The position numbers and the translations under genes were made by a program. From a virus: DNA of 27,482 bases. The stretch covers positions 1 through 27,482 of the IMG/VR virus record IMGVR_UViG_3300006929_000088; one strand, written 5' to 3'. Under the pieces are notes generated by a model, which saw nothing but the letters and a program-made list of their open reading frames with translations, was not told the DNA's origin and did not search any database. Positions within the stretch are counted from its first letter, which is position 1; the number at the start of each line of letters is the position of its first letter. Of the stretch, positions 1 through 27,482 are shown one piece after another.

Positions 1-2
1 AA

Positions 3-1444: not shown

Positions 1445-3008
1445 GCGAAAACCCTCACAATCTGTTGAAAAAATAAAAAAGCGTTTTGATGCGGCCTGGT
1501 CCGCCAAAGAGAATTGGCGTGATCTATACGAGCAATGTTACGAATATGCTCTACCGCAGCGCAATTTGTATGATGGCAGTTGGAAATCAGGAACGTCTGG
1601 GAAACATAAAACAGGTAAAGTTTTTGACTCTACGGCGGTGCATGGTGTCCAGCGGTTTGCAAATCGGTTGCAATCTGGATTATTTCCGCCTGATAAACAT
1701 TGGATGGCGCTACAGCCTGGAATTGATATTCCATCAGAAATGGATGCTGATGTGCGAAACGGTTGCCAGGAATTAACGGATAGGTTTTTTACTCTCATTC
1801 GTCAAACTAATTTCGATCTTGCTCTTGGTGAGTTTTTAATGGATTTGTCTGTTGGCACAGGCATTATGTTAATTCAACCGGGAACAGCGTTAAAGCCGAT
1901 TAACTTTCGGGCGATTCCACAATTTCAAGTTGCATTGGAAGAGGGTCCGGGCGGCGTTGTTGAAAATGTGTATCGCAAAATACGAATGTCAGTTGAAAAT
2001 ATAACCCGCGAATGGCCAGATGCTAAATTATCTGAGCCCATGCAAAGAATGTTAGAAGATAAACCGCAAGAGCCTGTTGAGCTCCAGGAAAGCACAATCG
2101 TTAATGTTAAAGACGGTGGTTTTGATTATTACATTTGTCACAAAAGCAACGAAGGCACAAACGATATGGTTGTGTATCGCTATTTAAAAACATCGCCGTG
2201 GGTTGTGAGCCGTTACATGAAAGCCAGTGGGGAGGTTTATGGAAGGGGTCCGGTTGTTCAAGCCCTTGATGATATTAAATCTCTTAATAAAACTGTAGAA
2301 TTGCTTTTAAAAAATGCCAGTTTGAATATTGCCGGAGTATATACCGCAGTTGATGATGGCGTTTTAAATCCACAAACAATCCGAATTGTTCCCGGTGCAG
2401 TTGTTCCCGTTGCGCGAAATGCGGGGCCACAAGGACCATCTTTGCAACCTCTGCAAAGAGCCGGAGATTTGCAATTAACGCAAATCGTTTTGCAAGATTT
2501 ACGATTAAACATAAAACGCATACTGCTCGATGATAGCCTTCCTCCTGATAATATGAGCGCACGAAGTGCTACCGAAATTGTTGAAAGGATGCGAGAGCTT
2601 GCCACAAATTTAGGAAGTGCGTTTGGTCGTTTAATAACCGAAACGATGGTTCCAATTGTAGTGCGTTCTTTGGCGGTCATGGAAGAGGCGCGAATTATTC
2701 CAAAACTGGATCTAAAAGTTAACGGACAGGATATTAAAGTCGTTCCGGTATCACCATTAGCGCAAGCGCAGAATATGGATGATGTGCAAGATGTTATGCA
2801 ATGGATGGGAATAGCAACACAAATGGGACCAGCGGGAATAGCAACAGTGAAAATGGATGCAATTTCCGATTGGGTTGCGGATCGTTTAGGGGTTCCAATG
2901 CAATTGAGAACAAGCGAAGAGGAGAGAGCCGAAATGGAACAAATGGCACAGCAAATGGCACAGCAAGTGGGCGCTCAACAAATGCCGCCTGATGAAAGTC
3001 CGGCTTAA
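1428..3008 (+). CDS. Portal protein (head-to-tail connector, T7 gp8-like)
   Basis: 526 residues, the usual size for podovirus connectors of the T7 gp8 family, which form the dodecameric ring at the packaging vertex through which DNA enters and leaves. The N-terminal region has the family's features: a helical WRDLYEQCYEYALPQRN segment, then KVFDSTAVHGVQRFANRLQS and a FPPDKHWMAL turn. Further on, GEVYGRGPVVQALDDIKSLN and TVELLLKNASL match the conserved wing and stem region, and MSARSATEIVERMRELATNLG lies in the expected place. The C-terminus is a Met/Gln-rich helix. It starts at ATG 1428, inside the preceding gene's last 17 bases. The stop shares one base with the next ATG (TAATG). Confidence 0.93.
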   Translation: MAARSRRKPSQSVEKIKKRFDAAWSAKENWRDLYEQCYEYALPQRNLYDGSWKSGTSGKHKTGKVFDSTAVHGVQRFANRLQSGLFPPDKHWMALQPGIDIPSEMDADVRNGCQELTDRFFTLIRQTNFDLALGEFLMDLSVGTGIMLIQPGTALKPINFRAIPQFQVALEEGPGGVVENVYRKIRMSVENITREWPDAKLSEPMQRMLEDKPQEPVELQESTIVNVKDGGFDYYICHKSNEGTNDMVVYRYLKTSPWVVSRYMKASGEVYGRGPVVQALDDIKSLNKTVELLLKNASLNIAGVYTAVDDGVLNPQTIRIVPGAVVPVARNAGPQGPSLQPLQRAGDLQLTQIVLQDLRLNIKRILLDDSLPPDNMSARSATEIVERMRELATNLGSAFGRLITETMVPIVVRSLAVMEEARIIPKLDLKVNGQDIKVVPVSPLAQAQNMDDVQDVMQWMGIATQMGPAGIATVKMDAISDWVADRLGVPMQLRTSEEERAEMEQMAQQMAQQVGAQQMPPDESPA

Positions 3009-3295
3009 TGGCTGAAATTATTGATATCAATGCGCCGGGATGGGAGGGCGTTAATGCTGAACAACCTCTTCCTCCGCCTCAATCGGATACGGAGCAGGGA
3101 ATGTTAGACCGCGCAATAGCGCATGTCCTTGATTCTCCAGACGGAGAAAAGATGTTGGAATGGCTTACAAATGCTTATCTTGGGCAACCTTCTTGGGCTC
3201 CTGGATACAGTCCTGATTTTGGATATTTTAGAGAAGGGCAAAACACGTTAGTACGGGAAATTTTAATGAGAGCCAATAGAGCGAGAGGAATGTAA
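3008..3295 (+). CDS. Bbp19-like small head-assembly-cluster protein
   Basis: 95 residues between portal and scaffold. The core MLDRAIAHVLDSPDGEKMLEWL and the C-terminal FGYFREGQNTLVREILMRAN resemble the Bbp19 family of small phage proteins (first named in Bordetella phage BPP-1), which sits at this position in many podoviruses. The molecular role of that family is not well established. Both ends are coupled by one-base TAATG overlaps, to the portal upstream and the scaffold downstream, so it is co-translated with both. Confidence 0.7.
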   Translation: MAEIIDINAPGWEGVNAEQPLPPPQSDTEQGMLDRAIAHVLDSPDGEKMLEWLTNAYLGQPSWAPGYSPDFGYFREGQNTLVREILMRANRARGM

Positions 3296-4125
3296 TGGCT
3301 GAGAATGAAAACGGTCAAGAGGAAACAACAGAACAAAATACCGCCGAAACTTCACCCCAAGAGGGCTTATTATCAACGGCGGAGAGCGTATCGAGAGAAG
3401 ATGCGGCTCCAGCAGAAGAAGCTCCAGAGCCAGCGCATACAGATCCATCAACGGGTGATGACAGACCAGAATGGTTGCCAGAAAGGTTTTGGAATGACGA
3501 TAAAGGACCGGATTATGAGGGTTTGGCGAAAAGTCAAGATGAGTTGTATAAGAAATTACGGAACGGTAAGCATATCGTGCCGGATGACGGGACGTATGAT
3601 CTTAAATTTCTTGACAACAAAGTAGCAGAAGATGATGCGTTGTTAAGCTCCTTTAAAAAGGTCGCCGCAGATCGTGGCCTAACACAAGATGATTTTGAAT
3701 CCATTGTCGGCCTTGTTGCTCAGAATATGCCGGAAGATGCAGAGCAAGAAGACAAATTTAACCGCGAAGCCGAACTTGAAAAGCTTGGCCCGGATGGGCA
3801 AGCGGTAATTAATGGTCACGTAAAATGGGCCCAGGAAATGTTAAAAGAGGGGGCTTGGACAAAAGATGATTTTGAAGAATTTAAAGTTTGGGGCGGAACA
3901 GCAAACGGTATCCGCGCCTTAACGCGATTGCGGCAATATTATGGTGAGAAGACAATTCCTATTCAAGCATCGCCAGATGCGGGAGATGTTCCAACTCAGG
4001 CAGAGCTTGAAAGCTTAATTGCGGATCCAAAATACAATACAGATCCAGCGTATCGTCAGAAAGTATATCGCCAACTTGAAAAAATGGATCCCAAAGCAGA
4101 AGGGCATATGCCAGGGTTAGGATAA
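3295..4125 (+). CDS. Capsid scaffolding protein (T7 gp9-like)
   Basis: 276 residues, acidic at the N-terminus (long E/T/A/D-rich disordered stretch to about residue 55), then LPERFWNDDKGPDYEGLAKSQDEL and a DDGTYDLKF motif typical of podovirus scaffolds. A helical middle follows, with a C-terminal end QAELESLIADPKYNTDPAYR that resembles the capsid-binding tail of these proteins. Scaffolds direct procapsid assembly and then leave or are degraded. Its position between portal and major capsid gene is canonical. It begins in a TAATG overlap with the previous gene. Confidence 0.9.
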   Translation: MAENENGQEETTEQNTAETSPQEGLLSTAESVSREDAAPAEEAPEPAHTDPSTGDDRPEWLPERFWNDDKGPDYEGLAKSQDELYKKLRNGKHIVPDDGTYDLKFLDNKVAEDDALLSSFKKVAADRGLTQDDFESIVGLVAQNMPEDAEQEDKFNREAELEKLGPDGQAVINGHVKWAQEMLKEGAWTKDDFEEFKVWGGTANGIRALTRLRQYYGEKTIPIQASPDAGDVPTQAELESLIADPKYNTDPAYRQKVYRQLEKMDPKAEGHMPGLG

Positions 4126-4131
4126 TGTTTT

Positions 4132-4356
4132 GTGCCCCGCATTAATGATAAACCAAATATTCCCCCGGATAGCTGCGATCATATAGACCGAGTGATCGAG
4201 TTATCCGAAGTTCTGATAAACGAAGACGATAATGAGCTTGCAACGGGATATCACAATGTTATTCGTGAAGAGTGTGAGTTGATTAGAATGATTAATACGC
4301 AATTGCGAACCGCGAGTAAATATTGGCATGACAAATATGCGCGGCGACGCAGTTAA
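4132..4356 (+). CDS. Small helical phage protein of unknown function
   Basis: 74 residues from a GTG start at 4132, six bases after the scaffold stop. The sequence is mostly charged helix (CDHIDRVIELSEVLINEDDN, then REECELIRMINTQLR) ending with YWHDKYARRRS. No known domain is recognised. The coding case rests on tight packing, with a 29-base overlap with the next gene, and on a plausible protein composition. A competing ATG at 4125 gives only six codons and was not chosen. Confidence 0.6.
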   Translation: MPRINDKPNIPPDSCDHIDRVIELSEVLINEDDNELATGYHNVIREECELIRMINTQLRTASKYWHDKYARRRS

Positions 4357-4558
4357 ACAATCCAAACTATTAAGTTTTGTTGAATCTGGCACAAATGCTG
4401 TGATTGGATTGGCTGTGAGTTGGGCGTTTACATATTTTGCGTTGCCTTTGTTTGGATTAATTCCCACACCCGCAGTCGCAGGGTGGATCACGCTTTGCTA
4501 CTTTATTTTATCAATGGGTCGTGCATATATTCTAAGGCGCATCTTTGATACATTTTAA
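4328..4558 (+). CDS. Small two-helix membrane protein (DUF7220-like)
   Basis: 76 residues with an N-terminal KQSKLLSFVESGTNAVIGLAV segment, a hydrophobic stretch at about residues 22-45, a second at about 48-62, and a basic end MGRAYILRRIFDTF. This pattern (QSKxxSFVES... two helices ...RxxxLRRxF) matches small phage and prophage membrane proteins grouped as DUF7220; function unknown. ATG 4328 and ATG 4337 are both possible starts. It is the last gene before the non-coding leader of the capsid gene. Confidence 0.65.
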   Translation: MTNMRGDAVKQSKLLSFVESGTNAVIGLAVSWAFTYFALPLFGLIPTPAVAGWITLCYFILSMGRAYILRRIFDTF

Positions 4559-4598
4559 TTAATAGTAAGTCTATAGCCAAAACATAACAAAAAGACTA

Positions 4599-4627
4599 TT
4601 GACATATTGATACACATCTGAAATTGT
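4599..4627 (+). promoter_or_regulatory. Possible sigma70-type promoter for the capsid operon
   Basis: A perfect TTGACA lies at 4599-4604. With a 17-bp spacer the -10 position at 4622-4627 reads AATTGT, matching only three consensus bases, including the important second A and last T. It sits in the only sizeable gap of the early structural region. The -35 element is clear and the -10 weak, so this is tentative. Confidence 0.35.
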
Positions 4628-4641
4628 GAATGTAACCCTAC

Positions 4642-4698
4642 CTCAAAACCTTTGAGTCGGTTGGTAACGGCAAGAACCTACTTGCAAGCCACAGCCGG
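4642..4698 (+). promoter_or_regulatory. Structured leader RNA candidate upstream of the major capsid gene
   Basis: Two hairpins follow each other. The first is CTCAAA-ACC-TTTGAG (4642-4656), six perfect pairs with a three-base loop. The second has a perfect core GCAAG-AACCTA-CTTGC (4670-4685), extended by TGG 4662-4664 pairing with CCA 4689-4691 and TCGG 4657-4660 pairing with CCGG 4695-4698. Neither stem is followed by a T run, so they are not ordinary terminators. A good ribosome binding site and the capsid ATG lie about 45-58 bases further on. The leader could stabilise or control capsid mRNA; this is inferred from structure and position. Confidence 0.45.
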
Positions 4699-4755
4699 AG
4701 TTTGTTCCCCACCTGTATGGCGATCAAATTTTAACTTAAAATAAGGAGCTTTGAG

Positions 4756-5595
4756 ATGGCAGTATCTCTAAGCACAAACTTTACCAAGCTTTTTGCAGCC
4801 GAAGTAAAACAGGCGTACCAAAGCGTTCAAAAATTGGGCGGCTCATGTCGTTCAAGAACGGGCGTTGTGGGGTCTACGGTGCAATTTCCGAAGATTGGTT
4901 CAGCAAGTGCTACCGTACACATACCCTCCACCGATGTGGTGCCGCTTAACGTGACCCATAGCAATGCGGTTGCGACCCTTACCGACTATGCTGCACCCGA
5001 ATACACATCTATTTTTGACCAACAAAAAGTCAATTATGATGAACGTAGTGAGTTGGTGCAAGTTGTATCAAATGCAATTGGTCGTCGAATCGATCAAATT
5101 AAATTGGATGCACTTACAGCGTCTTCAACATCTTTAACCGTTGCTAACAGTATCGGTGGTTCAAATACGAATTTGAATTTCGCAAAGGTGCGTGAAGCAA
5201 AGCGCCTCTTAGATGGGCAGAATGTTCCCGCAGCAGATCGTTATATGGCGATTCATGCGGATTCACTCGCTTCACTCTTATCAGAAAGTCAGGCCACTAG
5301 CATCGACTATGTAGCGGCACGAAATCTGATGGATGGAAGTGTTGGATCCTGGATGGGTTTCAAAATAATTATGCTTGGTGACATGGACGAAGGCGGACTT
5401 GCGATTGACGGGTCTTCTGATCGTTCATTGTTTGCATGGCATAAAGACGCTGTTGGATATGCGGAAGGTATCGGCATTAAAACCGAAATTAACTATGTCC
5501 CAGAAAAAGCAAGTTGGCTTACGAATTGTATGCTAAGTGCCGGAGCCGTGGCCATAGATGATTCTGGAATTGTTAAATTAACCTGTAGAGAATAG
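4756..5595 (+). CDS. Major capsid protein (HK97-fold, podovirus type)
   Basis: 279 residues with a strong ribosome binding site (AAGGAG at 4743-4748, seven bases before ATG). The sequence follows the pattern of podovirus capsid proteins: FTKLFAAEVKQAYQ at the N-terminus, TVQFPKIGSASATVHI and VATLTDYAAPEYTSIFDQQK in the E-loop and P-domain region, a long helix around VQVVSNAIGRRIDQIKLDAL, DRYMAIHADSLASLL, and a C-terminal FAWHKDAVGYAEGIGIKTEI typical of the A-domain end. It builds the icosahedral shell. It stands between scaffold and tail genes in the usual place and is the first gene of the transcription unit that ends at the terminator near 5896-5950. Confidence 0.92.
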   Translation: MAVSLSTNFTKLFAAEVKQAYQSVQKLGGSCRSRTGVVGSTVQFPKIGSASATVHIPSTDVVPLNVTHSNAVATLTDYAAPEYTSIFDQQKVNYDERSELVQVVSNAIGRRIDQIKLDALTASSTSLTVANSIGGSNTNLNFAKVREAKRLLDGQNVPAADRYMAIHADSLASLLSESQATSIDYVAARNLMDGSVGSWMGFKIIMLGDMDEGGLAIDGSSDRSLFAWHKDAVGYAEGIGIKTEINYVPEKASWLTNCMLSAGAVAIDDSGIVKLTCRE

Positions 5596-5605
5596 GAGTA
5601 AACGA

Positions 5606-5887
5606 ATGGCTTATGCAGTAGCAGGGCTACAGCCCATAGGTGGTCAGTCCAAAGCGGGGAATGCTCCCCAAATTTGGTCTTATACCAGCACTGACGCAAA
5701 AACTGCAATTGATGCTTCTGGTTATTTTAATGATGCTTCTGATTTGTTGAAGGTAGGGGATTTAATTTACATCCACGCTTCAACAGGGGGCACACGTACA
5801 TATTCATTAGCACCCGTTGTTTCTAATGCGTCTGGCGTAGTCGATACCGGGGACGGTACGGCGGTTAGCGCAACAGACTCAGACTAA
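5606..5887 (+). CDS. Small head protein, probable capsid decoration or head fibre
   Basis: 93 residues starting after a clear AGGAG (5594-5598). It contains NAPQIWSYTSTD, an AIDASGYFNDASDLLKVGDLI segment and a beta-rich Gly/Thr/Val C-terminus. Short proteins of this type (APQ..SY...GYF...GD.I) follow the major capsid gene in many podoviruses and are usually taken to be head decoration or head-fibre proteins. That role is inferred from position and pattern. A strong terminator-like hairpin begins nine bases after its stop. Confidence 0.65.
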   Translation: MAYAVAGLQPIGGQSKAGNAPQIWSYTSTDAKTAIDASGYFNDASDLLKVGDLIYIHASTGGTRTYSLAPVVSNASGVVDTGDGTAVSATDSD

Positions 5888-5895
5888 AGTTACCG

Positions 5896-5950
5896 TGACC
5901 GGGGTGGTTTCCTCTCCGTGCGTTCTCCTTATCGCCCCGGTCATTTCTTT
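5896..5950 (+). terminator. Rho-independent terminator after the capsid genes
   Basis: A nine-pair GC-rich stem, TGACCGGGG (5896-5904) with CCCCGGTCA (5935-5943), closes a 30-base loop and is followed by TTTCTTT. It lies between the small head protein and the tail genes. T7 has its phage terminator at the equivalent place, just after gene 10. The long loop and interrupted T run suggest incomplete termination. Confidence 0.75.
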
Positions 5951-5963
5951 ATAAGGATTAAGT

Positions 5964-6590
5964 ATGGCAATTAATGATACTGACGTTTCGATTTGTTCTC
6001 ATGCTTTAACCCTTTTAGGCGAGAACACAATTTCATCTTTTTCAGATGGTTCAACGCAAGCTGGTATTTGTGAAGCATTGTACCCGGATATTCGGGCAAT
6101 GATGCTGTCAATGTATGCGTGGTCTTTTAGTATTAAAAAAGTAGACCTTGCACGGTCAGCAACGGCTCCTGTTAATGAATGGAATTATGCTTATCCAATG
6201 CCTTCAGATAGCTTAACAGGAGTTCCAAGGGCGGTCTTTGCCTCAAGCGCGGTGGGAGCCCGGACGGTTACAGGAGGATGGGAGCTCTACGAAAAAGAAA
6301 TTCAATCAGATTACGAAGATATTACAATTGACTATCAAGCAATTCCGCTAGAAGCCGAGATGCCGTCTTACTTTATTCAGCTTTTAAAATATGCGATGGC
6401 TTGGCATTTAGCGGAACCCGTTACCGACCAAATCAGCAAAGCGCAGCATTGGGAAAGAGTTGCCATTGGCAATTCATCAGATGCAGGGCGAGGCGGATAT
6501 TTTCGCCAAGCGGCAACAGTTGATGGTCAAGGTTCGAGTACCGAATTTATTTCCGATTATCCTATTGTCGATGTAAGGATGACAGGGTGA
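5964..6590 (+). CDS. Tail tubular protein A (adaptor, T7 gp11-like)
   Basis: 208 residues, preceded by AAGGA at 5953-5957. The N-terminus DVSICSHALTLLGENTISSF and the following EALYPDIRAMMLSMYAWSFS are characteristic of the gp11/adaptor family (ICxxAL..LG...I.SF; YP..R..LL....WSF). Residues 68-90 (VNEWNYAYPMPSDSL) and the late YFIQLLKYAMAWHLA also fit. The adaptor ring joins the portal to the nozzle. The next gene follows after one base, as usual for the gp11-gp12 pair. Confidence 0.92.
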   Translation: MAINDTDVSICSHALTLLGENTISSFSDGSTQAGICEALYPDIRAMMLSMYAWSFSIKKVDLARSATAPVNEWNYAYPMPSDSLTGVPRAVFASSAVGARTVTGGWELYEKEIQSDYEDITIDYQAIPLEAEMPSYFIQLLKYAMAWHLAEPVTDQISKAQHWERVAIGNSSDAGRGGYFRQAATVDGQGSSTEFISDYPIVDVRMTG

Positions 6591-6591
6591 T

Positions 6592-8985
6592 ATGGGCAGA
6601 GTTATTAAAGTTCAAACGAACTTTGCGGTGGGAGAGATTAACCCGGAGCTAAGAGGCCGAATTGATCTCAAACAATACGAGAGTGCGTTAGAAAGAGCTC
6701 GAAACGTCATTTGCAAACCCCAAGGCTCTGTAGAAAGACGCCCAGGGCTTAGATATGTTTTTACAATCCCATCCGTTGCTGCACCACAATCCGGGGTGCG
6801 TTTAGCCAATTTCGCTTTTTCCACAACCCAAACCTATATGTTTCTGTTTACCGGGACACGCGCTTATATTTTTAAAGAGGGCGTTCAAATTACTAATATT
6901 AACGGAACGGGCAATGATTTCCTTGATTGCTCCTCAAGTGTTAGCGGTGTAACGGATGGCGTGACAAGTGCAAGATTGTCTAATTTATGGTGGACACAAA
7001 GCGCCGATACAATTTTATTGTTTGAGGAAACGATGCAGTCTATAAAAATTGTCCGGGGAGCAAATGATGCAACGTGGACAGTGAGCGATATCGCTTATGA
7101 CTTTATTCCCAAATATGATTTTGTTCCCGCAGCCACAACGCCATCAGCAACCCTTACTCCTTCAGCGGTGACGGGGAATATTACATTAACCGCCAGCAGC
7201 GGTGTATTTACCTCAGATCACGTAAATCAATATATTCAAGCGAATGATAATTTTGGCAGGGCAAAGATAACAGGGTTTACGTCTAGTACCGTTGTTAGTG
7301 CAGTTACAGAAGTTCCCTTTTTCTCAACGTCTGCAATTGCAAGCGGAGCATGGACATTGGAAACGGGCTATGTTGATGCCTGGTCGTCTAGCAAGGGCTG
7401 GCCAAAAACTGCAACTTTCCATGAAGGGCGGTTAATGATTGGCGGTTCTCAATCCCTCCCCACAACAATATGGGGCTCACGGGTGGGGCTTTTCTTTAAT
7501 TTCGATGCAGGGCAATCGCTCGATGATGAGGCATTGCAAGCCACCATTGATACCAATCAAGTTAATGCTTGTGTGGGTATATTCTCCGGGCGTGATCTTC
7601 AAGTCTTTACAACAGGCACAGAATTTATTGTGCCGCAGCTTGACGGTGAACCATTAACACCAACGTCCTTTATTTTCAAACCAAGTACAACCAGAGGGAC
7701 AAAAGAAGGAACGATGCCTGTTTCTACGGAGGGCGGAACATTACATTTGCAACGCGGCGGCAAGGCAATACGTGAGTTTCTTTTTCTTGATGTGGAAGGG
7801 TCCTATGTTTCAAATGATATTTCGCTTTTATCATCGCATCTTTTACAAACCCCTACGCGAATGGCGATGCGGCGCGGAACGAATGTGGATGAGGGTGATT
7901 TGTTATTTTTGGTAAATTCTGGCGATGGCTCAATGGCGGCTTTTTCTATATTGAGAAGTCAAAATGTGATTGCCCCTAGTTTACTGACAACAGATGGCAC
8001 ATTTCTCGATGTTCAAGTTGAAGATGCGGATGCGCCGATTACCTACACAGTGATAAAGCGAACAGTCCCGGATGAAGCAACTTGCACAATTACGGTATCA
8101 GATTATGCAAATATTGCCGTTGGAAGCACAATTATCCTTACAAAACAGGATGGCGATACGGTTACTTTTACAAGTGCCGGAAGCGCCACAACGGATAAGT
8201 GGGTTAGTGCAACTTCTAATAATCAGACAGCAACAAACTTAGCCGCTGCCATTAATGGCAATGCTAATTTTTCTGCATCAGCGTCAAGCGCCGTTGTAAC
8301 AGTCACACGGGCAACAATTGGACGGGATAATTTGACTGTGACCAGTAGCGATACCACACGCCTGGCAAAGACAAACTTTTCAAATACAGAGGTCTATTAT
8401 GTCGAGGTGTTTGATAGCAATTATACCACAGATGCAGCAAAACAATTTACAGCCGCCGCCGCTAATTTGCCATCAACCACAACCGTTAATAGCGGGATTA
8501 ATCAGCTTGAAGATTTTGAGGTTGAAGTTATTGCGGACGATAGCGTTTTGGCCAGCAAAACGGTAGCTAGTAATACAATTGTCAGTGATAGGACCGCAGA
8601 TACATATCTTGAAATTGGCTTAGAATTTCCATCCTTTACCGATTTACTAGCGGGAAGTGCAACAAAAACAACACCGTTGGTGCGAACAATGCCCGTTGAA
8701 ACGCGATTGCCGTCTGGTCCTGTTACGGGAAATAAAAAGAGGATCGTACAAGCAAGTGTAATTATGGATAACACGCAAAGCATGGCCGTAAACGGCAAGG
8801 AACTATTTTTTCGTCGTTTTGATGATATGGCGCTAGATGCTGGAATTGTAAAATTTACCGGAACAAAACGCATTGGTCCGTTTTTGGGATATGATTTTAA
8901 AGGCCAAGTTGAAGTCACCCAAACACAACCTTTGTTTATGACACTGTTATCATTGGATTACCGTGTCAGCGTTGCAACCGATTAA
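6592..8985 (+). CDS. Tail tubular protein B (nozzle, T7 gp12-like) with an inserted domain
   Basis: 797 residues. The start GRVIKVQTNFAVGEINPELRG and the following YESALERARNVICKPQGSVE are hallmarks of the gp12 nozzle family, which forms the beta-propeller tube end of podovirus tails. KTATFHEGRLMIGGSQSLPTT and a VNACVGIFSGRDLQVFTTGTE block are the conserved middle. At about residues 490-593 the family's turn between two strands (ITYTVIKRTV and TEVYYVEVFDSNYTTDAA) is interrupted by a Ser/Thr-rich module with a GDTVTFTSAGSATT...ATNLAAAINGN pattern. That pattern is a beta-rich unit seen in many phage tail and structural proteins. The C-terminal part resumes the nozzle pattern. The start at ATG 6592 is one base after the adaptor stop. 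Confidence 0.9.
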   Translation: MGRVIKVQTNFAVGEINPELRGRIDLKQYESALERARNVICKPQGSVERRPGLRYVFTIPSVAAPQSGVRLANFAFSTTQTYMFLFTGTRAYIFKEGVQITNINGTGNDFLDCSSSVSGVTDGVTSARLSNLWWTQSADTILLFEETMQSIKIVRGANDATWTVSDIAYDFIPKYDFVPAATTPSATLTPSAVTGNITLTASSGVFTSDHVNQYIQANDNFGRAKITGFTSSTVVSAVTEVPFFSTSAIASGAWTLETGYVDAWSSSKGWPKTATFHEGRLMIGGSQSLPTTIWGSRVGLFFNFDAGQSLDDEALQATIDTNQVNACVGIFSGRDLQVFTTGTEFIVPQLDGEPLTPTSFIFKPSTTRGTKEGTMPVSTEGGTLHLQRGGKAIREFLFLDVEGSYVSNDISLLSSHLLQTPTRMAMRRGTNVDEGDLLFLVNSGDGSMAAFSILRSQNVIAPSLLTTDGTFLDVQVEDADAPITYTVIKRTVPDEATCTITVSDYANIAVGSTIILTKQDGDTVTFTSAGSATTDKWVSATSNNQTATNLAAAINGNANFSASASSAVVTVTRATIGRDNLTVTSSDTTRLAKTNFSNTEVYYVEVFDSNYTTDAAKQFTAAAANLPSTTTVNSGINQLEDFEVEVIADDSVLASKTVASNTIVSDRTADTYLEIGLEFPSFTDLLAGSATKTTPLVRTMPVETRLPSGPVTGNKKRIVQASVIMDNTQSMAVNGKELFFRRFDDMALDAGIVKFTGTKRIGPFLGYDFKGQVEVTQTQPLFMTLLSLDYRVSVATD

Positions 8986-8997
8986 AGGGGTATAGAT

Positions 8998-9561
8998 ATG
9001 GCATGGGCAGCATTGGCAATGGCAGTCGTTTCCGCCGTTTCATCCGTTCAAAAAGGCCGTGCAGCAGCCGCGCAAGCTGAAGGCCAGGCACGGGCGTTAG
9101 AAGTTAAGGCTGATTGGACTCGTTTTGAAAGTCGCCAAAAATCATTGGAATATAAAAAACGGGCCGCAGATGAGTTGGAGGCTACATTAATCTATCAATC
9201 AAGAATAAATGCAGCAGCGGGAGCAGGCTTAATGGATCCATTTTCGGGTAATCCAATGGGTTTAAAAATTCAAGCTCTTGACGTTGGTGCAACAAATTTT
9301 GCAATGGCCGAAACCAATGCCACAATTGTCCGCAAGCAAGGGTTGGCACAAGCTGGAATGGAATTAAATCAAGCACAGCAAGTCAGAAAAGCGGGTCAAT
9401 CAGCACGGCGGTCTGGTTATTTTGGGGCTTTGACTGCAATCGGCCAGGGGTTAATGGGATATTCGCAAACGGCAATCCCTTCAACTTCCACGCCACCCAC
9501 TTCTAGTTTTCAGCCTGTCAGCTCTCCAATGTATCCCACCAGCTATCCGGGGTATAAATAA
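8998..9561 (+). CDS. Internal virion (ejection) protein, T7 gp14-like
   Basis: 187 residues with AAAGGGG ahead of ATG 8998. It has a small Ala-rich hydrophobic N-terminus (WAALAMAVVSAVSS), a long helical stretch with KKRAADELEATLIYQSRINA, then GLMDPFSGNPMGLK and a second helical part, and a Pro/Ser-rich tail ending YPGYK. Size, order and pattern match gp14-type proteins, which are ejected first and form the pore part of the trans-envelope channel. Its stop shares one base with the next start (TAATG). Confidence 0.8.
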   Translation: MAWAALAMAVVSAVSSVQKGRAAAAQAEGQARALEVKADWTRFESRQKSLEYKKRAADELEATLIYQSRINAAAGAGLMDPFSGNPMGLKIQALDVGATNFAMAETNATIVRKQGLAQAGMELNQAQQVRKAGQSARRSGYFGALTAIGQGLMGYSQTAIPSTSTPPTSSFQPVSSPMYPTSYPGYK

Positions 9562-11552
9562 TGCCTAAAGGGATGCCTAGACGATCATTATTAGAAGGAT
9601 CCGTATCTCCAGCCGCGATGTCCGTATCTGTGCCTTTATCGAATCCAGAGCTAGATCAAACCATAGCGATGTATAACGATATAAGCGTCCGAGCGAATAG
9701 TTTTTCTGACTCTATGAACAAAATGTCCGCGAAAAAAGCGGAAGCAGCAGGGGCTTCTTTTGGCGCTGTACGGGCCCCTACGCTGGAAGAAATTGAAATA
9801 GCAAAAGAGCTTGGACAGCCTATTAGTCTTCCAGGCAAAGCTGATTCGTTTTCAATTTTTCAACAAGCAGCGCACCAAGCAGGGCTTGCTGTTGTAGAAG
9901 ATAATTATGGTGTATTAGCATCCGCAGCGTTAGCGGAAGAAAGCGCGAAAGCGTCAGCGGATCCAAACATGACACCGGAAATGTATTTAGAACAAATTGA
10001 CGGTGTTGGTGAAAGCTACGTTGATATTCTCAATTCAATTTCACCACGATCAGCAGCCAAGCTACGTGCAAATTTATTTACAGAACGCAATAGAGGCTAT
10101 TTAGCTTTTTCAAAAGCGTTTTTTAAAAAACAAAAAGATGAAGCAAGAAGTTTTGCAGTTATTATGGCTGGCGAAATAGCCGAGGTGTCAAGACTAGAAA
10201 ACCAATTTTCTGGATTTCTTTATACGCCAGGAAATAGCCCTTTTAAAGATTTGGAAGCGCAAAGAGCAAGACAAGTTGAACATCTTAAAAATAATGGAGC
10301 CACACTCGCGGACATTGATAAATTTAATGATCTTTTTAATAAAAATGTTTTAGAAGCACAGCAACAATATGTTGTAGAGAGTATAATGCGCGGTGACTAT
10401 GGCGATATAACTTTATTAGATGCCGCACAAAGTCTAAATCAAAGTAGCTTTGGTAGAGAAGTGTTTGCTCCAAAAGACGGCCAAGAATTTGAAGAGTCCG
10501 CTGAACCAAGAGATGTTTTGCAAAGCGTCTTTAATAACTTGGATAAAAGGGATCAATATGCTGTTACGCTTGAATTAAGGAAAAAACATGATGAGCTTAA
10601 AAACCTGGAAAGGGTTGATGATGCGGCAAAAGAAAAGGAGAGAACGGATCGCATTGAAGTAAGCCATAGTGTTATATGGGATCAAATACAGTATGGGCCT
10701 ACTGAAAACCAATCCGTTCAAGATTGGTATGATAATAGCCGAAGTTTGATAATGAAATCTATTGTTATTCCGCGAGAGGCGGGTGAGGGCGATGATGCTG
10801 ATTTTACCAAAACCGCGTTACTTGCTGATTTAAATGCCGCTTTTGCAAGTCACACGCAACAAAATTCAGAGGGGGAAAAACAGCCAACAGCAGAGCAAGA
10901 TCAATTTTTTCACAACACACTCAACGATATTTTGACAGGTCAATTTACTAAAAAATCTTGGTTAAAAAAGAGAAAGATTATAATGCAACAAGCGAGGGAC
11001 CTTGGTCTGCCACATACCGGAAACCACGGCGTTAATATTAACGCTATTGTTTCTGAATATCGAACATTTGCCGCAGCCCAGAAAACAGAGGTAACAGAGG
11101 CGCTTGCTAATGCTCGTCGGGTGATCTTTATTAAGTTTGGTATTGATGTTGGTATTCTTGGTCTTGATGGGACTCGTTGGCCTAATAAAGACGCACCCGT
11201 TGCTCAAAGAGCAGCGAGTAGAGCTTTTCAAGATGTTCGTATAAAAATCCTTGGAAAAGACGCAAAGAATGAAGATTGGACGGGTGATTTAGATCAGACT
11301 GATGAAAATTCTTATATTAACAAAGCCATTAAATTACGTATGGAAGGTTTACCAACGCCAATCGAAGGATTTGGAGAAGAGGCTGAACTAACCCTTGAAA
11401 CAGTTGACCAAAAAGAACAACAACAACAAGAGGAATATCGCTCATCGCTTGCGAAAGCGGAGCAAGAGTTATTACAGGAAGGACTCAGTGAGCAAGACAG
11501 GGAAAGGCTCATTACAACGATAGAGTTTTATAAAGAAGAATTGGGGTTGTAA
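9561..11552 (+). CDS. Internal virion protein, T7 gp15-like
   Basis: 663 residues, largely helical and charged, with few hydrophobic runs. Motifs used for the call are weak: an N-terminal MPRRSL block, a middle with FTERNRGYLAFSKAFFKKQ, and a Gln/Glu-rich end (EQQQQQEEYRSSLAKAEQEL). The assignment comes mainly from position between the gp14-like and gp16-like genes, from size close to the T7 gp15 class, and from helical composition. This class forms the periplasmic part of the DNA ejection channel. Translation is coupled to the previous gene by a one-base overlap, and the next gene begins four bases after the stop. Confidence 0.7.
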   Translation: MPKGMPRRSLLEGSVSPAAMSVSVPLSNPELDQTIAMYNDISVRANSFSDSMNKMSAKKAEAAGASFGAVRAPTLEEIEIAKELGQPISLPGKADSFSIFQQAAHQAGLAVVEDNYGVLASAALAEESAKASADPNMTPEMYLEQIDGVGESYVDILNSISPRSAAKLRANLFTERNRGYLAFSKAFFKKQKDEARSFAVIMAGEIAEVSRLENQFSGFLYTPGNSPFKDLEAQRARQVEHLKNNGATLADIDKFNDLFNKNVLEAQQQYVVESIMRGDYGDITLLDAAQSLNQSSFGREVFAPKDGQEFEESAEPRDVLQSVFNNLDKRDQYAVTLELRKKHDELKNLERVDDAAKEKERTDRIEVSHSVIWDQIQYGPTENQSVQDWYDNSRSLIMKSIVIPREAGEGDDADFTKTALLADLNAAFASHTQQNSEGEKQPTAEQDQFFHNTLNDILTGQFTKKSWLKKRKIIMQQARDLGLPHTGNHGVNINAIVSEYRTFAAAQKTEVTEALANARRVIFIKFGIDVGILGLDGTRWPNKDAPVAQRAASRAFQDVRIKILGKDAKNEDWTGDLDQTDENSYINKAIKLRMEGLPTPIEGFGEEAELTLETVDQKEQQQQEEYRSSLAKAEQELLQEGLSEQDRERLITTIEFYKEELGL

Positions 11553-11555
11553 GTA

Positions 11556-14500
11556 ATGGCTAACGAAATCTTATTACAAGACCCCAAATATCAGGCGTTT
11601 CTACGGAGAAAATACCCAGACCTTACTGATAGTGAAATTGCTCAAAAATTAGGTTTTTCTGTAGAAAATATGGTTGAGCAAGAACCAGCGCAAAACCAAA
11701 TCCCTGCGGAGGGCGAGGAGACAACTGTTTTAGAAGACGTTGTTGATCGTCTTGAAGAGGTATGGGAAGGGGCCGTGGAAAGTAGTGAGGGTATTCTTGC
11801 TGGCGGTACTAAAGCCGTAAATGCAGCCGTAGATCTAGTGATCGGTGAAGACAATCGTAAAGCAGCGGAAGATTATTTGTTTCCTAATAATTATGTTGCG
11901 CTTGACTCTAGTCGAATTGGTGAATTTTCCTCAGATGTAACTCAATCGCTGATTGGTATTGTTCCGGCAATGAAATTAGTCAGAGCACTAGGCGTTGGAG
12001 GCAAATATATAGGAGCAACCATTGGCGGTGCGGTTGGTGAATTTGTAACTGCTGATGAAGAATTAGCAAAAACTGTTTTAGATATGTTTAAAATAATTCC
12101 CAAGGAATATGGCGGTGAAACGGCTCTTGCGTATGCAGATACAATTGCGGAATGGATGGATGAGCCAGACGGGAATGTTGGCAATTTACGTTCTCGTTTG
12201 GTGGTAGCGGCCCCTGGTGTTGTCATAGGCCCAGCGGTACAAGGAATACTTGATCTAGCTGGCAAAGCATTACGCGCTGGTGGGCAAGTTAAAGCAGATT
12301 TTCTTGCAACAGCAAATGCCGGGCTGCGGGGTTCAGAAGTTCCGGTAACACAGGCGAAAACGGTAGCGGAAACGTCGAGTGAGCGAATATTACAAAATAT
12401 AAGTCCAAAAACCCGCCCCCACAAAAGATTGACATTTGCTGAGGTATATACTCGCTTTATTGATCGTGGCCACCCTCTTGGGCGAGTAGTTAAAGAGCTT
12501 AAAGGAAATGAAGACCTTGCCGCGCACAATGATCCTTATAAAATATGGAGGACAAATATCGTCGGTGAAGGCCGCGCTACCGCTGCGTTAAAATTTGGGC
12601 CGACTGATTACTATACACGGGAAACGATGGGACGTTCATTACAGGATATTCTTAAACCCGTACATGGACAACTGAAAGAGTTTACAGCGTATTCAATCGC
12701 AAGACGGGCAATGGAATTAGAGAAGCGAAATATTAACACAAACATTGACATGGCTGATCGTAAAGCTTTGGTCGGCCAACATAAAAAAGATGGATTGTTT
12801 GCTAAAACTTTTGAAGAGGTTGTAGATTATCAAAATAATGTTTTAAAACAACTGGCCGATACAGGCGTTCTTACAAAAAAACAGTATGAAGCGATACTGA
12901 AGAAAAACAAAGATTATGTCCCAATGTATCGGGAAATGGATGATGGTAAATCCAGTGCGCCTGGTGCGCGGTCTAAAAGACCGATCAAGACCATAAAAGG
13001 TGTCGAAAAAGATTCTACTCGCAATCTTGTCGATCCATTAGAAAGTATAATTTCGGATACTTATCGCTATTCGGAATTAGCTGAAAGAAATCGAATGGCA
13101 ACGGCAATGATTGACCTAGACCCAAATGGATTGTTGTTTACAAAATTAGACCCAAAAACAAAAGCGATTAAAGTAAAACCGGAAGAGGTAGGGCTTTCTA
13201 AAACAATTCGGGGTGGCGTAGAAAATAATCCTGATGAGCTAACTATTTTTAGAAGAGAAGCCGCTCCTGAAAGTGACCGCACGTTTGTTGTGTATAACGA
13301 TGGGAAAGCTCAAATATACGAAGCGCCTGATCCAGAAATAGCGGCGATTTTAAATAACGCAAAACCCAAAGAGGTTGGATATGTTACTAAGGTGATGAAT
13401 GTTCCGGCCCGTGTGTTACGTGCCGGGGCCATTTTAGACCCTGCATTTTTCGTAAAAAATATGATGCGGGATAATATAACAGCGGCGATCTATTCAAAAA
13501 GTGGGTATATTCCTGTTGTAAGCTGGCTTGAAGGTTTCCTGGCAATGGGTTTCAAGAGTAAATCCTATAAACAATGGGTCGCAAATGGAGGAGCAAACGC
13601 TACTTTTGTAGATATTGACCGGAAATATTTGAATACAAACCTTGAAGAATTAACGAAACAAACGGGACTGTTGAAAACTGCGGCAAATGTTGTAAATCCG
13701 CTTAATACATTAAGGTTTTTACGTTTTATGTCTGATGTTTTTGAAAACTCAACTCGCGTTGGTGAGTTTAAAGCAGCAAAAAGACAATTGGGGGATGGTC
13801 CTAATGCGATAGCCGAAGCCGCGTATCGTTCTAGAGAAGTAACTTTGGATTTTGCGAGAATGGGCGATCAAATGAGGGCTATTAATATGATCTCAGCCTT
13901 TACAAATGCCCGTGTCCAGGGGTGGGATAGATTAGCAAGAGAGTTTAGAGACAACCCTAAAAAAGCAGTTATTAAATCTGCGATGCTAATTACGGCTCCC
14001 GCCGTTTATTTGTGGTTCGATAATCATAGTACCCCCGAAAAAGCCGAAGTGTATAGAAATCTACCCGATTGGCAAAAAGACATATTTTTTATTGTTCAGT
14101 CGGGCGACACGGTGTACCGGATTCCAAAGGCATTTGAGCAAGGTATAATTTTCGGAACATATGCTGAGAGAATATTAGATATTGCACATGGTGAAACGAA
14201 GATGACTTTGCCAAATATGAAAAAAGCGTTTTTAGATCCATTATGGTCAGATACGGGGTCTGGTCTTGTTCCCCAGGCATTATCTCCTTTAATAGAAAAC
14301 TTAGCGAATTACGATATTTTTAGAGGAGGGCCACTTATACCAAGGGACCAAGAGCGTTTGTTAAGTGTCGATCAACAAACAATATATACATCAGAAAGTG
14401 CCAAAGCGATTGCCAGAGGATTTGATGACTTGGGAGTGACAGGACGTATCGTTTCACCCATAGGCATTGAAAATTTTGTGGGTAGTATGTCCGGTACATT

Positions 14501-21139: not shown

Positions 21140-21565
21140 TCAAATATGTATGCTTGGTCCGGGTCGCGCTCTAATGTTTCTTGCGCGAATGGGGGATCGT
21201 CTTTTGGCCTTAACTGGTGCTTTGGTTGTTTTTCCGGTTTTTTTTGTTACAGCACGTGCCATCCATTGTGGAACCGCCCGTAGCGTATATTCACCAGGAT
21301 TTATAGTACCTTGGCGATCAAAGGATTTAATTTCTTCGCGTAAATCGTTTGGCGTTTGGTATCTGTACCATAGCTCCTTATCATGTCTGTCTCGAATGAG
21401 AATCCGGGTGACTGATACATCGGCTTCTGTGTTATGTTCGCGTTTTACAGCTTTGGCAACCATGCAAAAGTTGTGATCTTTCACAACGCCTGTCTGATAA
21501 TCTTGTTGCGTTAATCGAATTACAAGTGGGCTTTCTGCATTTTTCACCTTTTTTACTTTTGTCAT
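21140..21565 (-). CDS. Alternative internal product of the GIY-YIG-like ORF
   Basis: An in-frame ATG at 21563-21565 (minus-strand start 21565) follows CGGAGAG and seven A bases, copying the arrangement at the ORF's own start. It would give a 141-residue basic protein without the nuclease-like part. I list it because the duplicated ribosome binding site suggests independent translation of the C-terminal half. Function unknown. Confidence 0.4.
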   Translation of the reverse strand: MTKVKKVKNAESPLVIRLTQQDYQTGVVKDHNFCMVAKAVKREHNTEADVSVTRILIRDRHDKELWYRYQTPNDLREEIKSFDRQGTINPGEYTLRAVPQWMARAVTKKTGKTTKAPVKAKRRSPIRARNIRARPGPSIHI

Positions 21566-21883
21566 TTTTTTCTCTCCGTTTGTTAAGTTGATTTTTGCGC
21601 TTGCTTTCTCAACAGCGTTTTCTGCAATTTCGGGCGAACACGCAAAAAGCTCTCGCGCATTTGCAATCCCGCTAATCAGATATTTTTTTAAAATTAAATG
21701 AACTTCGGCTTCTGTTTTTTTCATTAACTGAAGATCTACAGGAAATTCTTTATATAGGTCATGTCTTTTTAGATTATACTTTTTTATATATTCGTTCCCG
21801 CGTATGTTTGGGTCACGGGTTGTGCACCCTACCTTAACTGTATTTCCACTTTCGTGTTTTAAAATATAAATATACCCTCTCAT
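21140..21883 (-). CDS. GIY-YIG-like (T5orf172/MUG113-type) protein, possibly two fused genes
   Basis: 247 residues from the start at 21883, preceded by CGGAGAGG. Residues 3-28 (GYIYIL...VKVGCTTRDPNIR) and TEAEVH (Glu60, His62) match the GIY-YIG nuclease relatives grouped as T5orf172 or MUG113: Tyr, K-V-G, Arg and a later Glu. From residue 107 the chain reads like a separate protein (LVIRLTQQDYQTGVVKDHNF, then a basic tail KKTGKTTKAPVKAKRR). A second ribosome binding site of nearly the same sequence (CGGAGAGAAAAAA) lies just before Met107. It is convergent with the + strand late genes. Confidence 0.6.
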   Translation of the reverse strand: MRGYIYILKHESGNTVKVGCTTRDPNIRGNEYIKKYNLKRHDLYKEFPVDLQLMKKTEAEVHLILKKYLISGIANARELFACSPEIAENAVEKASAKINLTNGEKKMTKVKKVKNAESPLVIRLTQQDYQTGVVKDHNFCMVAKAVKREHNTEADVSVTRILIRDRHDKELWYRYQTPNDLREEIKSFDRQGTINPGEYTLRAVPQWMARAVTKKTGKTTKAPVKAKRRSPIRARNIRARPGPSIHI

Positions 21884-21905
21884 TTTTCCTCTCCGTTTTT
21901 CCCTG

Positions 21906-24429: not shown

Positions 24430-25674
24430 TTAGCGTTTCCGTTTTCTGCCGATGCTACCAATAACCTTTTTCACATCCGATTCTTTTCGCGCTTGAAGTG
24501 CATTTTCGCCGTAACTTTCAAAATCGCGGATGGATTTCCAGCCAAAAACAGCCATAATTAAATCAGGCGTAATTCCCGCCTCAATCATGCGACAAGATGC
24601 GGCTTTTCTCAAACCATGTGAGGTACAATATTTGGGAAAATTGGGAATTGCCTCCCGCCATTTTCGTATGTCGGCGTTTAAGCAATTTTTTGAGTAGGGC
24701 ATACCTCTATGTGTAACCAGAAAAGTTTTCATTCCAGTCGGGGTTGCGCGAATACTCTCCTCAAGTTCTGGTAAAATCGGTAAATTTTGCTTTTTTCGCG
24801 TATTGCTTTCACGCTCATTTAATTTTGCGTTTTTATGCTCAACAAATTCCAGACAATTTGTGTTTCTGTTTACCATTGGGGGGCCTAATCTTTCAACGTC
24901 ACTAATGCGGCAACCCGTGTATAAATGGAGATCAAGCCACAGCCTTGGTTTTGTGCCAATCGGATAAAATTCTTCCCAAAGCTGAATTTCCTCCTCAGTC
25001 CAGGTGTGATGTTTTTTACAGCACTCACATCTCGCCTTACTCGTCACTTGCATTTTCGTTTTTTTCAATCCAGCGGCAGGGTTTTTGTGAATCGCATGGG
25101 CCCCTGGTGGCAGATTCCCCTCTTCCATTGCCCAATTAAATAATTCCTTAAAACAGCGTATTCGTTTTTCTGCTGCCCCAGGTAGTCCGCGCTCCAGTTT
25201 AGCATCTGCAATACGGCGAATATGATAGGAGGTAATATCTTTGTATGGAATGTCAGCTAAAGAAATAAAGAGTCCGCGCTTAATTTCATATTCACAGTCT
25301 TTGTCTTGAAAAACACTTTCAAAAATAAGTTCTTTGTCATGTAAAGTTTTGCGCTCAACAACCAAACGCACATTTGCCGAATTTCGGTATTGCTTGACCA
25401 GCCAGCCAAGTGTGTTTGGCGTGACCACTCTTTCGCTTTCCCGTTTTTTGAATAAAACAGATGGATCAAACTTTACTTTTCTGCGGCTCTTGCGCTGCAA
25501 CACAAGCTGTTCAATTTCTAATTGTAAAGCCTCCAAATCGTCAGGGTCGCTTTGCAATCTTCCATAATAAATGCCCTTCTTCTGAAAAACCAGGTTATGA
25601 TAAACATGGCCTTTACTACTCGTTTTTTTAACAAAGACTCCGGCGATAGGGTGTTTTTTCTTCTTTTCACTCAT
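24430..25674 (-). CDS. int: Tyrosine integrase
   Basis: 414 residues. The catalytic residues are visible: Arg256 in TGCRISD, His353 and Arg356 in SHGLRKAA, Trp379 in FGWKS (Trp in place of the second His, common in integrases) and the nucleophile Tyr388 in FESYGEN, eight residues between Trp and Tyr. The N-terminal part holds an arm-binding-like region and the core-binding domain (about 85-205). An unusual Cys/His cluster, RCECCKKHH (Cys216, 218, 219; His222, 223), lies just before the catalytic domain and may bind zinc. The start overlaps the HTH gene stop (ATGA). Function: site-specific integration and excision. Confidence 0.9.
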   Translation of the reverse strand: MSEKKKKHPIAGVFVKKTSSKGHVYHNLVFQKKGIYYGRLQSDPDDLEALQLEIEQLVLQRKSRRKVKFDPSVLFKKRESERVVTPNTLGWLVKQYRNSANVRLVVERKTLHDKELIFESVFQDKDCEYEIKRGLFISLADIPYKDITSYHIRRIADAKLERGLPGAAEKRIRCFKELFNWAMEEGNLPPGAHAIHKNPAAGLKKTKMQVTSKARCECCKKHHTWTEEEIQLWEEFYPIGTKPRLWLDLHLYTGCRISDVERLGPPMVNRNTNCLEFVEHKNAKLNERESNTRKKQNLPILPELEESIRATPTGMKTFLVTHRGMPYSKNCLNADIRKWREAIPNFPKYCTSHGLRKAASCRMIEAGITPDLIMAVFGWKSIRDFESYGENALQARKESDVKKVIGSIGRKRKR

Positions 25675-25901
25675 TTGATTTTAAAATCCGCTACGAAATC
25701 GTCATTTTCGTTATCAGCCACAGGGAGCTCGTCAATGTAATCATCGAGTGTCTCCAGCAGCCAAACCTTTCTTTTCCCCATGAGCCGGGGTTTTAGCTGC
25801 CCATTTTCTTCACAAAGTTTATCAAATTTACTTACGCCCATTTGAAGGTAATCCGCCGCTTGCTTTCTTACAAAAATTCGTTGCCTGCTATTGTATTTCA
25901 T
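25671..25901 (-). CDS. AlpA/excisionase-like HTH protein
   Basis: 76 residues from ATG 25901 with a very strong ribosome binding site (GGAGGTGAT). The sequence IFVRKQAADYLQMGVSKFDK then LMGKRKVWLLETLDDYIDEL follows the small MerR/AlpA-type winged helix used by excisionases: a helix-turn-helix, a basic wing and a final helix. Position directly before the integrase, with a four-base overlap, fits a directionality factor. It could also regulate the integrase. The Asp/Glu-rich C-terminus is unusual but short. Confidence 0.7.
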   Translation of the reverse strand: MKYNSRQRIFVRKQAADYLQMGVSKFDKLCEENGQLKPRLMGKRKVWLLETLDDYIDELPVADNENDDFVADFKIK

Positions 25902-26628
25902 TTTTATCACCTCCTGGAATCTTAAAGCAGTCAAGGTCATCCCGATGGCCTAGAGCTAAATTAAAAATATCTTCCGGCATAAAAAGGTCATCAACCCAAA
26001 GGCGCAGATTACCTTGAATTGATGCTGTGCCAACGCCATCGACGCACACCATCCGCACCAAAAACCAGCTCAATCTCTCCGACCACATGTTGAGCAGGGA
26101 GGGGACTGAGAGACTAACCCATTTCGCCCGTTTGTCAGTTGAGTTTAAGATTTGAACGCACCGTCCGTTTTTTATTTTTCCATCCAGCCAGCGTTTTATG
26201 GTATTCTGCGACGCGACGTAGCTCAACATCGGGTGCGATAGAAAGTCAGACCTGGAGATATGATCGTCAAGGTTTTTTGTGCGGGTTGCCCGTCCCCTGG
26301 AGGCCCACAAGACCGCCCATGCCACTGCATCAATTCCGAGGTCAGCCTGGTTCATATATGCGTAGTAGGTCATCATCTCCATTCCATTGTAATCTGCATC
26401 CACGAATCTGAGTCGAGCTTCGATGTGATGTTGTTTGTCTTTGTGTCCAATATTTGAACAAAGATTCTTGAAATGTGAAATATAATGCTTTTCCGGGTCT
26501 TCGCGGTGCGAATCCAAGTTTTCATACAACCAGCCTCTTTTTGACCCCTCTGGGCCTGAGAGACAATCGTAAATCACACCATAAATTCGGTCATATACTA
26601 CTTTTTTTCGTTCCCAATCTAATAACAT
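25888..26628 (-). CDS. Winged-helix protein of unknown role, candidate replication initiator
   Basis: 246 residues from ATG 26628, preceded by GGAGGGGAAAG. I do not recognise a named family. Residues about 125-175 read as a winged helix (MLSYVASQNTIKRWLDGKIK, then NGRCVQI and DKRAKWVSLS, like the MarR recognition helix and wing). The N-terminal half contains ERKKVVYDRIYGVIYDCLSG and aromatic-rich helical sequence. It starts 58 bases from four tandem 13-bp repeats and a DnaA box, so a repeat-binding initiator or a repressor of the downstream integrase genes are both possible. The 3' end overlaps the HTH gene by 14 bases, making one operon with the integrase. Confidence 0.5.
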   Translation of the reverse strand: MLLDWERKKVVYDRIYGVIYDCLSGPEGSKRGWLYENLDSHREDPEKHYISHFKNLCSNIGHKDKQHHIEARLRFVDADYNGMEMMTYYAYMNQADLGIDAVAWAVLWASRGRATRTKNLDDHISRSDFLSHPMLSYVASQNTIKRWLDGKIKNGRCVQILNSTDKRAKWVSLSVPSLLNMWSERLSWFLVRMVCVDGVGTASIQGNLRLWVDDLFMPEDIFNLALGHRDDLDCFKIPGGDKNEIQ

Positions 26629-26685
26629 CTTTCCCCTCCAACATTTCAATATACACAGTTAAATTTAAAAATGTAGCCCAAAAGT

Positions 26686-26792: not shown

Positions 26793-27482
26793 TCATTTTT
26801 CTGCCTTTTTTTTAGGCGTTTTACTCTTCAAACTTTTTTTTATTTTTTTCTTGTTTAACCCTTTCTTAACCTTGAACGGGCCGTCTTTTCTGTGCGCCAT
26901 TACATTACTCACGCTTTGCGGATTCCAAATTCCGTTGCCATTGGAGCCGTCTTTTTTTTCAGCCGAATATGTTTTTATCCCTCGGCTTGTTAGAGCTTTT
27001 GCAATGCCCCGGAGAGACATAATTCCAGCCTCTTCAATCTCTTCGATAACGGGTAAAACGCGCAGCGCAAATTCCTTTGCGTGTTTCTGCATCGCCCTGC
27101 CACCCTTCGCTGATTGTTCTGCTACCCTGGGATTTCCAAGCTTCACGCCTTTTTCTTTCGCCGCTTTTAAAGCTGCTTTTGTTCTCTTCTTTGTCGTTGC
27201 AATTTCTAATTCAGCAACGCTTGCAAGCAATCTCCAGAGGAATTTAGTCTCTTCAACTGAACCCAGTTCCGGCACATCACACGCGACTACACCTACGCCG
27301 TGCCGTTCGCTATATTCAATGATCCATTGGAGAAAAGCGAAATTCCGAGTTAGCCTATCCATTTTCGCAATAATTAAAACGCAGTTATTCGCAACACAAA
27401 AATCCAAAGCTTCACGTAAAATCGGACGGCGATAATTCGTCCTCGATCCGCTTTCAACTTCTTTGAATACTTCTTTGATCTC
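26793..27482 (-). CDS. Serine recombinase (resolvase/invertase family), 5' end outside window
   Basis: The frame is open to the right edge, so the N-terminus with the catalytic serine is missing. The visible part begins EIKEVFKEVESGSRTNYRRP, the resolvase pattern, then CVLIIAKMDRLTRN with the conserved AKxDRLxR, and LLASVAELEIATTKKRTKAA. A C-terminal helix-turn-helix follows (MSLRGIAKALTSRGIKTYSA, then WNPQSVSNVMAH), and a very Lys-rich tail. It resembles resolvase-invertase proteins that resolve plasmid multimers or flip segments. The stop lies one base from a DnaA box. Its neighbours are the origin-like region and the integrase operon. Confidence 0.85.
   Translation of the reverse strand, partial: EIKEVFKEVESGSRTNYRRPILREALDFCVANNCVLIIAKMDRLTRNFAFLQWIIEYSERHGVGVVACDVPELGSVEETKFLWRLLASVAELEIATTKKRTKAALKAAKEKGVKLGNPRVAEQSAKGGRAMQKHAKEFALRVLPVIEEIEEAGIMSLRGIAKALTSRGIKTYSAEKKDGSNGNGIWNPQSVSNVMAHRKDGPFKVKKGLNKKKIKKSLKSKTPKKKAEK

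Follow-up and report, generated by a model that had tools for sequence, protein, structure and literature searches.

A viral reading frame that joins a T5orf172 nuclease domain to a phrog_19191 domain and keeps an internal ribosome site

Introduction

Whether one open reading frame (ORF) can stand for two genes, the second still able to start on its own, is the question raised by a locus of an environmental bacterial virus, IMG/VR record IMGVR_UViG_3300006929_000088, analyzed here over its full length of 27,482 bases (the window). The ORF under study lies on the minus strand at 21140-21883 (247 codons), and its frame is open throughout, from Met1 (21883) past an internal methionine, Met107 (21565). 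The original prediction described an in-frame joining of a GIY-YIG-like gene with a second gene that keeps its own ribosome site. Profile matches identify the 247 amino acid (aa) product as a T5orf172 (GIY-YIG) half followed by a half belonging to phrog_19191, a phage family without assigned function that is usually encoded by a free-standing gene. A two-gene origin is well supported, and a separate second product is plausible on sequence grounds.

Two Families Within One Reading Frame

The change in protein character that had been proposed at Met107 is borne out by the families on its two sides: T5orf172 at aa 3-93 (21605-21877, minus strand) and phrog_19191 at aa 122-202 (21278-21520, minus strand). 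The first domain matches Pfam T5orf172 (PF10544) with an E-value of 3e-9 and 37.8 bits (curated cut-off 20) across positions 1-99 of 101, and aa 2-94 match the small phage family phrog_15085 almost entirely (positions 3-94 of 103); this half also matches phage families whose labels read endonuclease or homing endonuclease. Aligned pairwise with a protein of Vibrio phage K303, the N-terminal half shares every GIY-YIG-type position (an early Y-x-Y, then K-[VI]-G, Arg, Glu and His), and we take these to be the key positions. The catalytic Arg and Glu of a T5orf172 nuclease have been described (PMC8263062). The N-terminal half is a predicted nuclease. All NCBIfam matches of the fused protein fall well under cut-off, and a PDB sequence search with the N-terminal half gave no matches.

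The N-terminal half matches the K303-type front part in the records of 67 Vibrio phages, at 32% identity in the 40 that were listed; among the 67, K303 alone was inspected. Its 319 aa protein (L083:3001-3960) has a T5orf172-like front and, by eye, a KGGSGST motif behind it that is presumably a ParA-like P-loop. A defence role for the fused protein was considered and is not claimed, because the PADLOC match to PDC-S57 (7.5e-5) falls on the T5orf172 part (aa 2-111).

The second half, read as an independent unit of 141 aa from Met107 (21140-21565, minus strand) according to the start positions of its relatives, matches phrog_19191 with an E-value of 1.6e-6 when the whole ORF is used and 5.7e-7 with aa 107-247 alone (30.9 bits, positions 3-85 of 91). 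Seven of the nine most conserved columns among 25 aligned members are kept in the window (T, G, C, A, A, D and P), the two departures being an L at a V column and a Y at an I column. Against Pfam, aa 107-247 have no family match at E-values up to 10, and they contain one Cys, hence no CxxC pair; an appended Zn-finger domain of the CapR/DUF723/DUF4397 kind was not found on these two grounds, no CapR profile having been run. Behind the domain, aa 206-247 (42 residues; 21143-21268, minus strand) form a strongly basic tail with a net charge of +13, which does not occur in 24 aligned free-standing relatives and may contact DNA.

AlphaFold2 (25 rows) models the second half as a confident alpha/beta domain, with block means of 77-96 over residues 11-100. 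A fold search with this model returned eight unnamed or uncharacterised viral proteins at an E-value of 0.001 or better; at the same threshold the PDB held no match either for this domain or for the full-length model. Ranks 1, 2 and 13 of the full-length PDB search, which lack significance, are UPF0213, Slx1 and UvrC, all of which we take to be GIY-YIG folds. In the full-length model, aa 99-119 have no regular structure.

Free-Standing Relatives of the Second Half

The prediction of two genes called for independent homologs of the C-terminal part, and these are plentiful. When 39 records, namely the window and 38 others chosen for having shown phrog_19191, were searched for the family, there were 55 matches, at least one in every record, of which 54 lie outside the window in the 38 other records. 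None of those 54 is joined to T5orf172, and the window's phrog_19191 gene alone is not free-standing by this measure, its frame being open into T5orf172; among the other 38 records a T5orf172 domain is present in one, ∼55 kb from that record's phrog_19191 match. The open frames around the 54 matches are 79-161 aa long in 53 instances and 235 aa in the last (L119), and a stop codon falls inside two of the matches. The 235 aa frame was considered as a second fusion and rejected: in this high-GC record the gene starts at an ATGA that overlaps an upstream frame, and its extra part looks like an out-of-frame upstream extension. At locus level there are 41 distinct phrog_19191 proteins, the window's included; two alignment-led scans had found virus loci, 6 in one and 26 in the other, partly from the same or nearly the same phages.

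Named phages with free-standing genes include Pelagibacter phage HTVC103P (gp12, 110 aa) and Gordonia phages Forza, Pupper, RobinSparkles and Keelan. These proteins resemble the window's second half in domain and start position, and in part in an ATGA overlap with the preceding gene; they differ in being 77-118 aa long, without nuclease half or basic tail. As a separate observation, 10 of the 39 records (W02, W04, W05, G021, G022, G025, G026, G027, G033 and G044) carry several phrog_19191 copies per phage, up to five, in places as overlapping tandem genes (e.g., L113:2483-3413, L100 and L101).

A Repeated Ribosome Site and Start

The same ribosome-binding site, CGGAGAG, had been reported before both methionines, and we find it at 21889-21895 (minus strand) for Met1 and at 21572-21578 (minus strand) for Met107, where the fusion reads it as part of Asn-Gly-Glu. 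An alignment of the two start regions spans 20 columns, with one gap and one mismatch. This pair scores best of the 300 pairs among 25 gene starts that we chose in the window, and none of the other pairs among 940 pairs of GGAG-preceded ATG codons scores as high; a chance likeness of the two sites was considered and rejected on these pair-scoring results. With the 16S tail, the predicted duplex energy is -6.6 kcal/mol at each start. Among 270 in-frame internal ATG or GTG codons of 20 ORFs, Met107 ranks seventh (tied with the sixth) by this energy, and the two top-ranked codons are probably the true starts of genes called too far upstream. Little RNA structure is predicted near either start.

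The position of Met107 also fits the family. The profile-defined phrog_19191 domain begins six residues past it, within the range of the relatives' candidate starts, which likewise lie close to the domain edge, so that Met107 coincides with the usual start position. The 318-base nuclease part is flanked on both sides by the repeated ribosome site and start, and these bracketing repeats could reflect insertion or duplication through short-homology recombination, or a common form of ribosome site. Elsewhere in the window, an internal Shine-Dalgarno site is strong at codon 14 of the gene at 25671-25940 and at codon 8 of the gene at 25888-26649, which suggests that the true starts of both lie 3' of the longest-ORF starts.

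Origin of the Joint

Between the internal ribosome site and the second gene is a run of seven A (21565-21571, minus strand), the last of which is the A of the second ATG. That codon opens an ATGA (21562-21565, minus strand), in which the TGA stands in the +1 frame of the ORF. The same four-base stop/start overlap occurs in three gene pairs of the window (23020/23017, 22157/22154 and 25674/25671), and in 17 of 40 distinct relatives the gene begins with an [AG]TGA (an ATGA or GTGA overlap) whose TGA closes an upstream frame that is 60 codons long or longer. As a control, 306 of the 2580 ATGA/GTGA sites in the same loci overlap the stop of such a frame. This yardstick is rough: it is not matched for gene starts, and 3 of the 17 overlaps come from records of 65-73% G+C.

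Most simply, the fusion would go back to an overlapping gene pair, from which it differs in frame by one base within the A7 run. The earlier suggestion of two genes joined by the loss of a stop thus holds as regards the in-frame joining of two families, whereas for the joint a length difference in the run seems the better fit than a substituted stop; a substituted former stop codon is a possible alternative origin.

Weighing the Explanations

The explanation we favour, with somewhat better than even confidence, is a real fusion that gives a full-length protein and, as a predicted second product, an internally started C-terminal protein. In such a history, a small T5orf172 nuclease gene and a phrog_19191 gene would have come to share a single reading frame, probably when a one-base change in the length of the A7 run at a former ATGA overlap joined them (the direction of change being our presumption), and the ribosome site and start of the second gene would have been retained. 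The 247 aa product would then consist of a nuclease head, a flexible link, the phrog_19191 domain and the basic tail, while Met107 would additionally supply a free 141 aa C-terminal protein. The head may cut DNA, and the phrog_19191 part with its tail may place or hold it, a division of labour proposed from the observed anatomy.

Several points weigh against this reading. The overlap does not occur in 23 of the 40 relatives, and for 3 of the 17 that have it the record has a G+C content of 65-73%, at which long open frames are frequent. A substitution in the former stop would look the same, and telling the two apart needs a close relative. Searches of viral_contigs, genome_contigs and the records sharing a portal-like gene brought up no near relative of the fused gene, so the length of the A7 run and the conservation of the fusion are unconfirmed. 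The model of the N-terminal half is of low confidence (58-68 per block as far as aa 70 and 38-45 for aa 71-110), and the two products are a prediction.

The strongest rival, which we hold to be a serious minority possibility, is a sequence or assembly error: the virus would have an A run of another length and two separate genes with an ATGA overlap. The joint sits at a homopolymer, the +1-frame TGA overlaps the second ATG in an arrangement common in the phrog_19191 family, and the fused gene is present in a single virus record, with no second copy among the sequences searched. On the other side, all 19 other runs of at least seven in the window lie inside open ORFs, a weak test in which three of the runs fall within the fused ORF itself. 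Widespread run-length error is less likely for this reason, and the A7 run is not itself confirmed thereby.

Rather unlikely is an extended form of the fusion reading, in which one frame encodes a targeted nuclease together with its own nuclease-less C-terminal partner or competitor, and one-base slips at the A7/ATGA joint would switch the lineage between separate and fused genes. Slightly less probable again is a fixed two-domain nuclease in which the full-length fusion alone matters and the internal ribosome site is a relic. The open frame would suit it, a T5orf172 domain with a second domain is normal in phage endonucleases (PMC10448857, PMC8263062), and the 319 aa K303 protein starts with a similar domain; however, the internal site equals the first in predicted energy and gives no sign of silence. 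Slippage at the ribosome site and A7 run, by which some ribosomes or polymerases would shift frame and three proteins would arise (a nuclease ending at the TGA, the fusion and the C-terminal protein), is very improbable: it has in its favour the order CGGAGAG-A7-TGA and the fact that A runs in bacteria are known to cause slippage and to yield more than one product (PMC1088944), but seven is short when selection against A/T runs is evident from nine in a large share of genomes (PMC1088944), evidence of conservation is nil, and this phage's other runs of seven or eight lie in ordinary ORFs.

Genomic Context and Searches for Close Relatives

By eye, the window has phage structural genes on the left and, on the right, an early region on the minus strand that includes a tyrosine-integrase-like gene. 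The fused ORF comes after a RecE-like exonuclease (phrog_434 match, E-value 3.6e-15), a gene that looks to us like an annealing protein (no family matches in three libraries) and a small helix-turn-helix (HTH)-like gene (weak matches only in the three libraries, all under cut-off). This early region contains, again as judged by eye, both a tyrosine integrase and a serine recombinase/resolvase (24430-25674 and 26793-27407). Another IMG/VR contig, L084, shares 99.3-99.9% identity with the window over ∼12.8 kb (window positions 1-12832); because it runs beyond the left end, the window probably represents less than a whole genome. The record of L084 has no match to the fused gene.

Scans with single proteins or halves found no relatives (P0003 and P0002 in viral_contigs; P0001 in genome_contigs and plasmids; the neighbouring HTH-like gene in viral_contigs), nor did alignment A3 in genome_contigs; these scans use short peptide patterns, and absence from them is weak evidence. 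With aa 107-247, phages gave no match at an E-value of 0.01 and, at 10, one weak Pelagibacter phage match (E-value 0.5), later confirmed as phrog_19191. Among the best 80 of 429 loci for the gene adjoining the RecE-like exonuclease, the fusion occurs in none and phrog_19191, by profile, in L010 only. The L010 gene (6987-7466) lies directly upstream of the gene that adjoins the exonuclease, on the same strand. At 14 loci with the portal-like gene, none of the 14 records (which may be fragments) holds a relative of the fused gene at an E-value of 0.1. A pattern search that let the A run of the joint vary in length gave 26 stretches, and neither half is encoded in any of them.

Implications and Comparison With Known Systems

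The locus may catch a step in the building of two-domain phage nucleases, in which neighbouring genes come to share one frame and an internal start survives. The link to a nuclease may also offer a handle on the function of phrog_19191, a small uncharacterised family. Should the A7 run turn out to be an error, the locus would instead counsel caution over genes called at ATGA overlaps.

The joint can be set beside coupled ATGA gene pairs, which have the same ATGA at the junction; in the window, the upstream frame runs past the TGA. Tight coupling at overlapping stop/start codons was seen in 13 of 14 tested pairs (PMC6728339). The free-standing homing endonuclease genes of T4 also have a stop/start overlap with a neighbour, which has been suggested to couple translation (PMC2988022), but there the endonuclease gene is downstream and the frames are separate, whereas here the nuclease half comes first and the frames are joined. 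Two near-identical temperate marine podophages differ by a ∼2-kb region, with a T5orf172 gene in one (PMC4047441), and by analogy a natural change at the window's joint would be in character.

The pairing of T5orf172 with phrog_19191 was not found in the literature searched, where most candidate papers were not read. Modular T5orf172 fusions are already known, and the closest kinds are of two sorts. The T5orf172 homing-type endonucleases of ICP1 and other phages likewise have T5orf172 at one end and an appended domain, and their domains are exchangeable through recombination (PMC10448857). ICP1 Gp88, an origin-directed nuclease, is similarly a chimera of a T5orf172 nuclease with part of another gene (PMC8263062); there the nuclease is preceded by a RepA-like DNA-binding domain at the N terminus, whose target is known, whereas the partner in the window is C-terminal and its function is unassigned.
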